Positions 24,195 through 32,579 of a stretch of DNA of 33,448 bases are shown here, piece after piece. The position numbers and the translations under genes were made by a program. This DNA comes from Chitinispirillaceae bacterium (GTDB lineage: Bacteria > Fibrobacterota > Chitinivibrionia > Chitinivibrionales > Chitinispirillaceae): contig JAFGIN010000150.1 in the NCBI GenBank assembly GCA_016929595.1, forward strand, positions 1 through 33,448, in the 5' to 3' direction. Every line of letters begins with the position of its first letter. The stretch's first letter is position 1. The notes beneath the pieces are model-generated. The model had not been told where the DNA came from. It worked only from the letters and a program-made list of their open reading frames with translations, and did no database searches.

Positions 24195-24754
24195 TCGAAG
24201 ATGCCGTCAGTAAAAATTACGCAACGGCGCTGTTTGCATCCGCTTCAGAAGCTGGTCTTATCGATACGGTAAAAACAGACCTCAGCCATATTTCGAGTTG
24301 TGTACAGGAAGATCCGGCTGTGTTTCTTCATCTATCTTCACCATCGATAAGGGGAGATATCCGCTGCAGTATAATCGAAAAAGCGTTCAGTAGTACTTTA
24401 CACGAAAAGACTATGAACTTTTTAAAAGTAGCAGCCCGTAACAACAGGTTAGACAAACTTGATTCAATAATCGAAGCATTTGCATTACTTGTAAATGTAT
24501 CAGAAAAAATTACTGATGCATTTGTTGAAAGTGCCTCTATCCTTTACGATGAAGAAATGAGTCTTCTGAAAAGGACTCTGGAAAAAAAGTTCGACTATAC
24601 ATTCAATATGCATTATAAAGTTAAACCTGAACTTCTGGGCGGGTTTACCGTCCGTATCGATTCTCAACTTATTGATAAAAGTATTTTCGGCGCAATAAAA
24701 GAGATGCGCCTCCAATTGAAACAGTGTAACATCACCTCCACTGTTGGTGAGTGA
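24191..24754 (+). CDS. atpH: F1Fo ATP synthase subunit delta
   Basis: A 187-aa subunit (OSCP type) that joins F1 to the b stalk. [14 protein letters not shown] near the N-terminus and [20 protein letters not shown] near the C-terminus are the family's conserved ends. The start overlaps the end of atpF, with GGAGGAG just upstream inside atpF. It ends 11 nt before the atpA ATG. Confidence 0.94.
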
Positions 24755-24765
24755 ATGGAAATCAT

Positions 24766-26943
24766 ATGGCAACGACAGTAAAATCAAATGAGATCATCTC
24801 TATTCTGAAAAAAGAGATCGAAGCATTCAGTCCTCAAGCCAGTCAATCTGAAATTGGTGAAGTATTACAGACTGGAGACGGCATCGTCCGGGTTTACGGA
24901 CTTACATCAGTGATGTCAGGCGAACTTGTTGAGATTGAAATTCCAGGTAAAAGCCCTGTGACAGGCATTGCCCTTAACCTTGAAGAAAGTTATACAGGGG
25001 TAGTGCTTCTGGACGAAGCAGGAAGTGTAAAGGAGGGTTTTGCAGTAAAACGTACTGGCGCTATAGCATCAGTACCTGTTGGCGAAGAACTGCTTGGCAG
25101 GGTTGTTGACCCGTTAGGACGGCCTGTTGACGACGGACCTCCACTACACACAGTATTGAGGATGCCTATCGAGCGTAAAGCACCTGGTATTACAGCGCGC
25201 ATGGATGTTTGTGAACCGATGTACACCGGAATAAAAGCGATTGATGCGCTGGTACCTATTGGAAGAGGTCAGCGCGAACTTATTATTGGAGATAGACGTA
25301 CGGGAAAGACAGCTATTGCCATCGATGCTATTATCAATCAGAAAAACAGAGCACCTGAAGATAGAATGCACTGTTTCTATGTAGCGATCGGTCAGAAGCG
25401 ATCCACTGTTGTCCGTGTTGTTGACAAACTTAAAGAGATGGGTGCCATGGAATACACAACGGTGGTATGTGCTACAGCCAGTGATCCGGCACCGCTTCAG
25501 TACATCGCGCCTTATGCAGGATGTACAATGGCAGAGTATTTCAGGGATAATGGAAAACATGCTCTTATTATTTACGACGATCTTACAAAACAGGCTCAGG
25601 CGTATCGCCAGCTCTCACTACTGCTGAGACGCCCCCCCGGTCGTGAAGCATATCCAGGAGATGTTTTTTACCTTCATTCTCGACTTCTTGAACGTGCTGC
25701 AAAGCTCAGTAAAAAACTGGGTGGCGGTTCGCTTACCGCATTGCCTATTGTAGAGACACAGGCAGGTGATATTTCTGCGTATATTCCTACAAATGTCGTT
25801 TCTATCACCGATGGACAGATCTTCCTCGAAAGCCATCTTTTCAATTCGGGACTGCGCCCGGCAATTAACGCCGGTATCTCGGTTTCCCGTGTAGGTGGGT
25901 CAGCACAAATAAAAGCGATGAAACAGACAGCGGGTACACTGCGGCTTGACCTCGCACAATTCAGGGAACTTGCATCGTTCAGTCAGTTCAGCGCCGATCT
26001 TGATGCAACCACCAAGGCACAGCTTGCCCGTGGAGAACGACTTACAGAACTTCTCAAGCAGAAGCAATACCAGCCTCTCAATGTAATGAATCAGGTAATG
26101 ATTCTCTATGCCGGAACACGCGGCTTCCTTGATCGTTATGCTGTTAACAAACTGGGTGCCTACGAACGTCATCTGCACACGTTCCTTGAATTAAAATACA
26201 GTGATTTTATGAAGCGATTGCAGTCAGCAGGGCAACTTACCACAGATCTTGCCAAAGAAGCTGAAGAGGTACTTCACGATTTCGAAAAAATGTTCGATCC
26301 ATCATTCTCTGCAGATAAAATCGATGAAGGGTTTACTGCTGCACTTGCGATAGCTCTTGGCAGTACCGGAGGAAAACATCGCCGGGAAATTCTCCACATT
26401 ATCGAACGTGCAACTGCAAAAGAGCTCTCCTCGCCATCACTGCAGGGTGAAATTGAAGAGGCGCTCAATTCAGGGAATTCAGCAAAGGATGATAAATTCG
26501 ACCTTATCGTTAAATCCTGCATCATTCTTGACATAGATACCCCCTGCAGTTTACAGGAACTTTTCAGAACAGCAGCAAACGAACTGTCAAAAACTTTACA
26601 GGTTGACGAGGAACTCATTTATACCAAACTTAAAGAACGTGAAGAAAACAGTTCCACAGCACTTACGCCTCTTTTTGCGGTTCCCCACTTTATAGTACCC
26701 GGCAATAAAAAATTCCAGCTTCTGGCGGTCAGGAGTAAACCTGGAATACATTTCAGTGTGAGTGCGCCGGAGGTTCATGCGATCTTTTTCCTTGCCGGTA
26801 CCATAGATGAGCGTAATACGCATCTTCTATCACTTGCTACTGTTGCGCAGGTTGTCGATGATCATGATTTTGAATCCAAATGGACCAAAGCCCTCACTAT
26901 AGAGGAGTTGCGTGCTCTCATTCATTCCGGAAAACGGTTATAA
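24766..26943 (+). CDS. atpA: F1 ATP synthase alpha subunit fused to a PTS EIIA type-2-like domain
   Basis: A 725-aa protein; normal alpha is about 500-510. Residues 1-510 are a complete alpha subunit: P-loop GDRRTGKT (175-182), the catalytic-interface Arg R375 ([10 protein letters not shown]), QYQPL at 434-438. A mainly helical linker covers about 511-580. Residues about 583-718 read as a PTS EIIA fructose/Ntr-type domain: [16 protein letters not shown], a [19 protein letters not shown] segment, then [11 protein letters not shown] with the phosphorylatable-type His at H641, and [13 protein letters not shown], all in family order. The frame is open throughout. I chose the ATG at 24766 (GGA 6 nt upstream) over a GTG five codons earlier. 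No separate alpha gene is present, so every F1 should carry three EIIA-like domains. Phosphorylation and regulation are inferred. Confidence 0.93.
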
Positions 26944-29351: not shown

Positions 29352-29352
<1 letters not shown>

Positions 29353-29642
29353 TGAAAACTTTTTTATGTAAATTAGTTACACCAGAAAAGGTTCAGTTTG
29401 AAGCTTCAGTCTGGCAGGTATCGATTCGAAACAACGAAAGCAGTTTCGCAATGCGGGCAAACCATGCAGACTTGTTTTTTACTGCAGAATCAGGGATTCT
29501 TGAGATCGCCGCAACCGAGACTTCACGCCAGAAATGGGAGCTCAGCGATTCGATTCTGGAATTTCGGAATAATGAGTGTTCGATAATCTCCCGAAGTGCC
29601 CAACTTATTGGTGGAGGAAATCAGCAGACCGAAAAACGGTAA
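29352..29642 (+). CDS. atpC: F1 ATP synthase subunit epsilon, short form without C-terminal helices
   Basis: A 96-aa subunit covering only the N-terminal beta-sandwich (CKLVTPEKVQFEASVWQVSI, then MRANHADLFFTAESGILEI) and ending in a polar tail. Typical epsilon is 130-140 aa and carries a C-terminal helical hairpin that inhibits ATP hydrolysis. That part is absent, and the sequence after the stop does not encode it in the same frame. Short epsilon subunits are also known in Bacteroidota and Chlorobi. Last gene of the operon, start coupled to the atpD stop. Confidence 0.92.
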
Positions 29643-29903: not shown

Positions 29904-32579
29904 ATGAACAGACATGTTTATATAGAAATTCTCCATGATACGATTCAACGGAACAGACAAAGGAATTGTCTGCATATCAAACGCGTCGGGAAATATACCG
30001 ATTGGACCTACGGTGATTTTCACAGAGATCTTAATCGCCTCACATCCTATCTGAAAAAATGCGGCTTGAAAAAGGGCGATAATGCGATAGTAATAGGTGA
30101 AAACAGCCCTGAGTGGGTTATCGCACACCATTCGATTATCCTCACGGGGGCCTGTGCAGTACCGGTTGATCCAAACATTCCACCAGCGGAAATAGAATCG
30201 ATCACCACCATTACTGAAGCAAAGATCATTTTTTGTACTTCAACATACCTTAAAATGTTCAAAGGTTTCAAGGTTCAGTATTCATTTATTGACAAAATAA
30301 TCAACCTTGACCCGCAGTCTGACGAAAAAGAAAGCATTTCAAAAGCGCTCAGAGCAGGAAATGTTGATAGAGATGCATTTGATCTGGAGTGCGCACCTGA
30401 TGACCCGATGGTCATAATATTTACATCTGGAACTACAGGTAACGCAAAAGGGGTCATACTCTGTCAGAAAAACTTTACCGCAGTTTGTCATTACGCAGTT
30501 CCGAGAATGAAACTGAAACCACAGGATGTTGCATGCGCAGTCCTCCCGTTGCACCATGTTTTCGGGTTTGCCGCCTGTATCGCCGGTCCGCTGTCTGCCG
30601 GAACAAGTATCGTTTTTGTTCCACATGTTAAAGGGCCACTCATCCTTGAAGCACTTCGGGATAAAGGGGTTACCTATCTTCCTGCAGTTCCGAAGATGCT
30701 GGCACTTTTTTACGACACGATACTTCATAACGTAAAGAAAAAAGGACCGGCTGTTGTAACCATGTTCTCCACAATGAATGCATTGAGCAGGACTGTCGGC
30801 AACAGACTGGGAGATTCATTCCAGCGCAGCCTTTTTGCAACAGTGCACAAGTCGTTTGGTGGAAAACTTCGCCTGATCATTTCCGGAGGAGCTGCCCTCA
30901 ACAAAAAGCACTGGAACGGCTTTCGTCAGCTCGGATTTACGATTGTTGAAGGATACGGATTGACAGAAACTTTTGGTCCGATAACGGTCTCGCCCGGAGA
31001 AAATGCGAGACTGGGTTCAGTTGGTCCGGCTCTCAGCGAAAACGAAATCAGGATCGATTCACCCGATCATAATGGTATTGGTGAAGTATTACTGAGAGGA
31101 ACCTGTGTTTTTAAAGGGTACTATAAAAATCCCGAACAGACAGATCTTGTATTTGACCAGGAAGGCTGGTTTCATACGGGAGACCTCGGCAAACTGGATA
31201 AAGATGGTTTTCTTTATCTGTCTGGCCGTAAGAAGGATATGATCGTTCTAGACAATGGAAAAAATGTATATCCGGATGAACTTGAGGATTTCTATGGAAC
31301 TTCACCGTTAATCGAAGAGATAGGCGTTTTTGGTATTGTCAACGAGGGTTGCGAAATTGTGGCAGCCGCAATTGTCCCAACAAAGGAGATTTGCAGCTCC
31401 AAAACTGTCACAGATGCAGCCAACATACTCTTCGATGAACTTACACGAATCGGAAAAACGCTTCCTGTTTACAGACGTATCACCGATTTTGTAACACTTT
31501 ACACACCACTCCCCCGTACGACAACCCGAAAAATAAAAAGACACGACCTCAAAAAAATATACAACTCCATTAAACGCAAGTCTGCCAATAAAACATCCGG
31601 CACAGAACAGCTTTCGGTTATGGAAATTGCCATGATGGAAACACTTGAATATGCTGGTACTATAAAAGCGATAATGGTTGCAGCACCGAAAACAGACGAA
31701 AGAATAATAAATCCGCGTTCCCACCTTGAAATAGATATAGGACTCGATTCTCTGGAAAAAATTGAGCTGCTCACCGTAATCGAAAAACAGTTCGCCGTTA
31801 CGGTTGAAGACGCTGTTTTTGAAAAAATGGAAACGGTCGCAGATGTAGTATCGCTCCTTCTGGAAAACAGGCTTAATAAAGGGCCATCCACAGTATCAAG
31901 TATTCTGAATTTCAAAGCGCGGCTTTTGAACAATACACCTGATTACATCAAATTCCCTGAAAAATCCAAACTCTTTGATACGGTATTACCACAACTGAAT
32001 AAACTAAACCCAGCCTTCTGTCATGCCAGTGAGGTTAAAGGGCTGGAGAAAATCAATAATATCATCTTGCCGATGATCTTCATTGCAAACCACAATAAAC
32101 CAGAAGATTTTCTCATGCTGCTCGAATCTCTTCCTCATGTAATACGAAAGGAAACGGTTACATTCAATGATCCATTATTTAAAGGATCTCTTTCAAAATT
32201 GCACTTTTTCCAGGATCACATTCTTCCCCTTGAAAAACCGAATGATCCGCTTGAAATACTGAAAATGTCCATATCAGTCATAAAAAGCGGCAGGAATCTC
32301 ATTCTGTTTCCTGAAGGAATTATCAGTAAACCAGGCATTCTCGGATCATTCAAAAGTGGTGCCTGCCTGCTTGCAAAAGAAACAGATGCAATGATCGTTC
32401 CGATAAAAATTACAGGGCCATATCATTTACAATCAAAATTCATCCATTCGAAGAAAACAGGACTTGTCATAGGAATGCCTCTGCAGTACAATGATCTTTT
32501 CGACGATAAAACGGATGCGATTCAGGCACCGGTGAGCGATGCCTCTGCGGCATTGCGCAAAATCATTGAAAGGTTATAA
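29904..32579 (+). CDS. Acyl-AMP ligase - acyl carrier protein - LPLAT acyltransferase fusion
   Basis: An 891-aa, three-part enzyme. Residues 1-550 are an AMP-forming ligase: FTSGTTGNAKG (173-183), EGYGLTETFG (349-358), FHTGDLG, GRKKDMIVLDNGKNVYP, and the catalytic Lys K543 in PRTTTRKIKR. Residues about 570-655 are a carrier domain with the phosphopantetheine Ser S616 in GLDSLEKIEL. Residues about 690-890 are a PlsC/LPLAT acyltransferase with HX4D (H730-D735, NHNKPED) and FPEG (802-805). It probably activates a fatty acid, loads it on its own carrier and transfers it to a lysophospholipid or other acceptor. E. coli Aas combines the same activities in the opposite order and without a built-in carrier. 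AAGG lies 7-8 nt before the ATG. The acyl chain and acceptor cannot be told. Confidence 0.92.
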   Translation: MNRHVYIEILHDTIQRNRQRNCLHIKRVGKYTDWTYGDFHRDLNRLTSYLKKCGLKKGDNAIVIGENSPEWVIAHHSIILTGACAVPVDPNIPPAEIESITTITEAKIIFCTSTYLKMFKGFKVQYSFIDKIINLDPQSDEKESISKALRAGNVDRDAFDLECAPDDPMVIIFTSGTTGNAKGVILCQKNFTAVCHYAVPRMKLKPQDVACAVLPLHHVFGFAACIAGPLSAGTSIVFVPHVKGPLILEALRDKGVTYLPAVPKMLALFYDTILHNVKKKGPAVVTMFSTMNALSRTVGNRLGDSFQRSLFATVHKSFGGKLRLIISGGAALNKKHWNGFRQLGFTIVEGYGLTETFGPITVSPGENARLGSVGPALSENEIRIDSPDHNGIGEVLLRGTCVFKGYYKNPEQTDLVFDQEGWFHTGDLGKLDKDGFLYLSGRKKDMIVLDNGKNVYPDELEDFYGTSPLIEEIGVFGIVNEGCEIVAAAIVPTKEICSSKTVTDAANILFDELTRIGKTLPVYRRITDFVTLYTPLPRTTTRKIKRHDLKKIYNSIKRKSANKTSGTEQLSVMEIAMMETLEYAGTIKAIMVAAPKTDERIINPRSHLEIDIGLDSLEKIELLTVIEKQFAVTVEDAVFEKMETVADVVSLLLENRLNKGPSTVSSILNFKARLLNNTPDYIKFPEKSKLFDTVLPQLNKLNPAFCHASEVKGLEKINNIILPMIFIANHNKPEDFLMLLESLPHVIRKETVTFNDPLFKGSLSKLHFFQDHILPLEKPNDPLEILKMSISVIKSGRNLILFPEGIISKPGILGSFKSGACLLAKETDAMIVPIKITGPYHLQSKFIHSKKTGLVIGMPLQYNDLFDDKTDAIQAPVSDASAALRKIIERL

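Follow-up and report, generated by a model that had tools for sequence, protein, structure and literature searches.

The 33,448-nucleotide stretch analysed here (hereafter the window; contig JAFGIN010000150.1 of a Chitinispirillaceae bacterium) carries a gene for an 891-aa protein in which a ligase, an acyl carrier and a PlsC-type acyltransferase are joined in one chain. With a probability of roughly one half, we read this protein as a self-loading acyl-ACP synthetase of the FAR-less ElbD-like kind, with an acyltransferase that uses an acceptor other than lysophosphatidate (LPA). We infer that its AMP-forming ligase, probably one for long-chain fatty acids, would activate a free fatty acid with ATP, that the activated acyl group would be loaded onto the pantetheine arm of the protein's own carrier at Ser616, and that the C-terminal PlsC-fold acyltransferase would then transfer the acyl chain to its acceptor. 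This acceptor would most likely lack a terminal phosphate and be a lipid or carry an amine, and would not be LPA. The acyl-ACP may also pass to separate PlsB-like and PlsC enzymes. Against this reading, loading of the carrier in trans, or release of acyl-CoA by the ligase, could occur instead.

Domain organization of the protein

The gene is a single uninterrupted open reading frame on the forward strand (29904..32579, +), which starts with ATG and contains no internal stops; all parts of it described below lie on the same (+) strand. A search of its domain architecture found four Pfam domains, each exceeding its curated gathering cut-off. The AMP-binding (adenylation) domain covers residues 15–407 (29946..31124; PF00501, E 2.7e-72) and includes the P-loop TSGTTGNAKG (residues 174–183, 30423-30452), in which T174–G179, K182 and G183 are invariant among the aligned relatives. 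It is followed by the C-terminal lid, AMP-binding_C_3 (residues 445–554, 31236..31565; PF23562, E 2.2e-5), with K543 in LPRTTTRK (31530-31532), and by the acyl carrier (PP-binding) domain (residues 587–651, 31662..31856; PF00550, E 1.8e-7), where the DSL motif is present as LDSLEKIEL with the putative attachment Ser616 (31749-31751). The PlsC-type acyltransferase domain comes last (residues 710–836, 32031..32411; PF01553, E 4.2e-11), and the best structural match of its AlphaFold model is the Thermotoga maritima PlsC (5kym). It contains catalytic motif I, NHNKPED (residues 729–735, 32088..32108, with N729, H730 and D735), and motif III, FPEGIIS (32307..32327, FPEG being residues 802–805). Among the aligned relatives from the order, N729, D735, S616 and K543 never vary; at H730, one sister family alone has Arg. 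The model of the full-length structure (pTM 0.57) is too loose for judging contacts between the domains.

Three modules in one chain with a carrier of its own had been proposed in the sequence-only reading, together with an order opposite to that of E. coli Aas; the Pfam domains AMP-binding, PP-binding and Acyltransferase in the one frame bear out the former, and the latter agrees with Aas, in which the acyltransferase comes first. The accompanying statement that all motifs are intact stands for TSGTTGNAKG, LDSLEKIEL, the H and D of motif I and FPEG, but not for the equivalents of PlsC Lys105 and Arg159, which are replaced by Asp756 and Ile807. No Rfam match was found within the window, and a scan for promoters and terminators around the gene gave matches no more numerous than in shuffles.

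The 6.6-Mb genome contains one copy of the protein, and the remaining matches there are weak and confined to the adenylation domain. Most of the other strong AMP-binding matches in this genome fall within giant NRPS-like frames; contig C182 (about 68.5–91.5 kb) carries such a giant NRPS-like gene, a frame of 8715 aa with many AMP-binding domains. An additional ligase of 514 aa, nearest to PRK06187 and exosortase-associated models, adjoins an 87-aa open reading frame of carrier size. We rejected an NRPS adenylation domain as an explanation of the window's ligase, since the whole-chain relatives are ligase-ACP-acyltransferase proteins and acyl-CoA ligases lead its NCBIfam matches.

Relatives and distribution

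Full-length orthologues with 52–59% identity are present in eight other genomes of the window's family (f1), and more distant ones occur elsewhere in its order and phylum. Scanning named genomes returned nothing with a single-sequence query and many relatives with an alignment query; it added fourteen more proteins with the full-length ligase-carrier-acyltransferase chain, whose assemblies are labelled Nitrospirota, Acidobacteria, Alphaproteobacteria, Verrucomicrobia and Planctomycetota, among others. Because the same chain is found in eight other complete family members and in about 25 more distant proteins, it is not a chance open frame or an assembly join; judged from this distribution, the chain is real and old. 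In a quick ligase-plus-carrier tree, supported by SH-aLRT values only, the nine members of the window's family form one supported group, which is nested in a group of 18 from their order and phylum and is well separated from the FAR-bearing proteins.

Residues of the acceptor site

The catalytic residues of the acyltransferase are conserved: all nine family members retain H, D, F, P and E in the motifs, and the HX4D pattern of PlsC and LPA acyltransferases is present in motif I. The acceptor site is altered. A review of LPAATs (PMC6688108) names R159 and K105 of T. maritima PlsC as proposed ligands of the LPA phosphate and reports strong inhibition of LPAAT-alpha when the EGTR Arg is mutated. 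We compared these positions using the T. maritima enzyme and the window genome's own PlsC as references. The window protein has EGII in place of EGTR, with Ile807 (32322-32324) at the Arg159 position, and Asp756 (32169..32171) at the Lys105 position. The latter is Asp or Glu in 9/9 family members and Lys in the six canonical sisters, those with K and EGTR (L037–L040, L043 and L044); the former is Ile, Val, Met or Thr in 9/9 and Arg in the canonical sisters. The stretch T751–756 has no gaps in the family and its sisters, so the alignment is secure there. Of the columns with a basic residue in each of the six sisters, only 756 is acidic in all nine family members, a change that was probably one ancestral event, so that nine sequences do not count as nine independent events. 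Loss of the basic residue of motif II was also considered and rejected, the window protein having Lys and six of the nine family members K or R.

Since both proposed phosphate-binding residues are gone throughout the family, the Lys exchanged for an acidic and the Arg for an aliphatic residue, plain acylation of LPA is unlikely. E. coli Aas, annotated as a 2-acyl-GPE acyltransferase, has Ser and Ile at the two positions, and such a loss is therefore compatible with activity on another acceptor. Taken by these residues, the acyltransferase probably acts on an acceptor other than LPA or is being lost. We suggest only tentatively that the acyltransferase of this bacterial family, charge-inverted at its LPA phosphate site but still catalytic and fed in cis by its own ligase and carrier, yields an acylated product not described before, which might be a cationic lipid acylated at N or O.

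Divergence, change and loss of the acyltransferase

Mean identity within the family is 67% for the N-domain of the ligase vs 36% for the acyltransferase, and from such alignments the ligase and carrier are the conserved core of the protein. On a fixed tree, the ratio of acyltransferase to ligase tree length is 2.8 in f1 vs 1.45, 1.0 and 0.56 in three sister groups; by this measure the acyltransferase of the window's family evolves about twice as fast, relative to its ligase, as those of the sister clades. In one draft genome (G017), the homologue of the window's family ends directly after the carrier, and none of the three frames downstream contains a remnant of an acyltransferase. In G017, G001 and G011, which belong to one genus, the same position is occupied by a convergent gene of similar length (706–726 aa); the G001 copy, the one analysed with Pfam, is a histidine kinase. 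The two homologues of sister family f3 read NR where motif I should have NH. These two observations, which rest on draft assemblies, hint that the acyltransferase may not be indispensable everywhere.

The main rival to the favoured reading sees the acyltransferase as an appendage that is decaying or serves structure only, with the ligase-carrier pair supplying acyl-ACP to other enzymes. An acyltransferase that diverges about two times more than its ligase would predict (ratio 2.8) fits decay as well, as do the end of the G017 protein after the carrier, with its neighbour placed as in G001 and G011, and the change of the motif I His to Arg in both f3 members. However, H, D, F, P and E are kept in all nine members at a mean identity of about 36%, and the domain has family-wide constraints of its own (acidic 756, D781–P782 and K787), unlike a domain in free decay; moreover, G017 is one draft genome. 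We regard decay as unlikely.

In f3 (L041:8920-12832 and L042:8322-12237) the gene abuts or overlaps a same-strand gene of about 405 aa, which is an MFS transporter by Pfam in L041. The pairing recalls lplT-aas, and here an acyltransferase without its catalytic His stands beside an MFS-type neighbour.

Gene neighbourhood and lipid genes of the host

The gene lies 261 bp downstream of atpC and is followed by a methyltransferase gene. At the loci of twenty relatives, neither neighbour recurs, the examined neighbours are mutually unrelated, and no conserved gene neighbourhood indicates a product. A functional link to the ATP-synthase operon was rejected in view of the 261-bp gap after atpC and the lack of atp neighbours at the relatives' loci, and an operon with the downstream gene because no match to the methyltransferase was found there. 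This lack of a conserved neighbourhood counts against the favoured reading, as does the lack of acyltransferase activity of ElbD in vitro.

The lipid genes of the host bear on the acceptor. PlsY (PF02660) was not found in nine genomes (seven of f1 and two of f3, the window's own included), nor was DegV/FakB (PF02645) in the own genome or eight relatives; the control genomes matched in both cases. With neither in the own genome, it makes sense for fatty acids to be taken up or recycled through an ATP-dependent ligase, which agrees with the recycling role suggested earlier. The genome also encodes a separate canonical PlsC (NCBIfam AGP_acyltrn, with EGTR intact) and a PlsB-like protein of 368 aa, so the LPA step need not depend on the fused acyltransferase. 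An ordinary recycling enzyme that passes acyl groups from the internal carrier to LPA, yielding phosphatidic acid, would agree with the PlsC fold and its match to 5kym, with the relatives that keep the canonical K and EGTR, and with the nine genomes of the order without PlsY; we nevertheless consider it improbable, given the loss of both proposed LPA-phosphate residues in the window's family and the separate PlsC.

The protein might instead reacylate lysophospholipids (phosphodiesters) as Aas does, with the domain order reversed. Its ligase, carrier and acyltransferase would suffice for Aas chemistry, and Aas itself, with S and I, lacks the Lys and Arg at both altered positions. Yet the acyltransferases of the family are no closer to Aas (14–21% identity) than to T. 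maritima PlsC (20–25%). A search for PS decarboxylase gave no match in ten family genomes, which makes lysoPE unlikely as acceptor; for this reason Aas, although the nearest enzyme of known function in which the Arg is lost, does not apply directly. An LplT-like partner was also rejected: MFS genes adjoin in f3 (two genomes) and in G006, and their NCBIfam matches include no LplT model. We hold this Aas-like role to be doubtful. As a separate point, the phospholipid pathway of a group without a PS decarboxylase or PlsY match may be unusual.

The window and its genome hold further observations on the ATP synthase and on EIIA domains. At 24751-26943 (+), an F1 ATP-synthase alpha subunit (730 aa) is fused C-terminally to a PTS EIIA type-2 domain (residues 588–725, E 2.5e-17). 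Full-length fused orthologues with 59–68% identity occur in G010, G017 and G037, from two families, and G010 additionally has an unfused AtpA; the likely phosphorylation-site His (H646 in AVPHF) is kept in all four fused copies. The fusion could link PTS phosphorylation to the ATP synthase, and a small literature search found no paper titled on such a fusion. The epsilon subunit (29352-29642) has only 96 aa, with a Pfam match to the N-terminal beta-sandwich domain only and the C-terminal helices not found. On contig C183 of the same genome, a 478-aa protein (L156:2358-3794) combines an N-terminal EIIA with a C-terminal match to the diadenylate cyclase DacZ, and its gene is directly downstream of a gene for a PlsB-like acyltransferase. 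EIIA type-2 domains are numerous, with nine matches in the own genome and all 21 genomes searched positive, and many of the matches in this genome and its relatives lie within long open frames.

Comparison with known systems

Single-chain ligase-carrier-transferase enzymes are widespread and mostly uncharacterised. A clade with fixed catalytic residues and flipped acceptor-site charges offers D756 and I807 as concrete residues for the question of the acceptor, and the canonical sisters, the His-less sister family and the relative without an acyltransferase serve as natural controls.

E. coli Aas (acyl-ACP synthetase/2-acyl-GPE acyltransferase, PRK08043) likewise has a ligase and a PlsC-type acyltransferase in one protein and shares Ile at the EGTR Arg position with the window protein, but its acyltransferase is N-terminal to the ligase and it has no internal carrier. 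The fused NCBIfam models PRK08633 and PRK06814 match the window protein with 147 and 151 bits vs cut-offs of 1221 and 1349, and PRK08043 is not among its best 25 NCBIfam matches. The T. maritima PlsC has the same fold and the HX4D and FPEG catalytic motifs; it differs in Lys105 and Arg159, and the window domain differs from it in being fused to a ligase and a carrier.

The closest kind is that of ElbD. The protein of Myxococcus xanthus has the architecture FAR-ACS-ACP-AT; work in vitro confirmed that its ACS and ACP are active and detected no activity of the acyltransferase, and FAR-less ElbD-like proteins were reported from other phyla (PMC9131029). The window protein has the ACS-ACP-acyltransferase order of these FAR-less proteins in one chain. 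Two proteins from the scan, L050 (Acidobacteria, 1458 aa) and L051 (Myxococcales, 1494 aa), have the order NAD_binding_4/Sterile-AMP-binding-PP-binding-Acyltransferase, and the window ligase is only 28–40% identical to these FAR-bearing proteins, M. xanthus ElbD itself being compared by description. Unlike ElbD proper, which has a role in ether-lipid synthesis, the window protein has no N-terminal FAR: its AMP-binding domain begins at residue 15 and it gives no match to PF07993. Presence of PF07993 as an indicator of FAR was rejected as too general, since it matches all 14 control genomes. Among the examined neighbours (atpC and the methyltransferase in the window, none conserved in the relatives), no pattern resembling the elb operon (elbB, C and E) was seen, and the window acyltransferase differs from ElbD in the altered acceptor site. 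On this comparison of domains, the architecture is already known from ElbD-like proteins without FAR; the overall kind of protein is thus familiar, and the change at the acceptor site is its new element.
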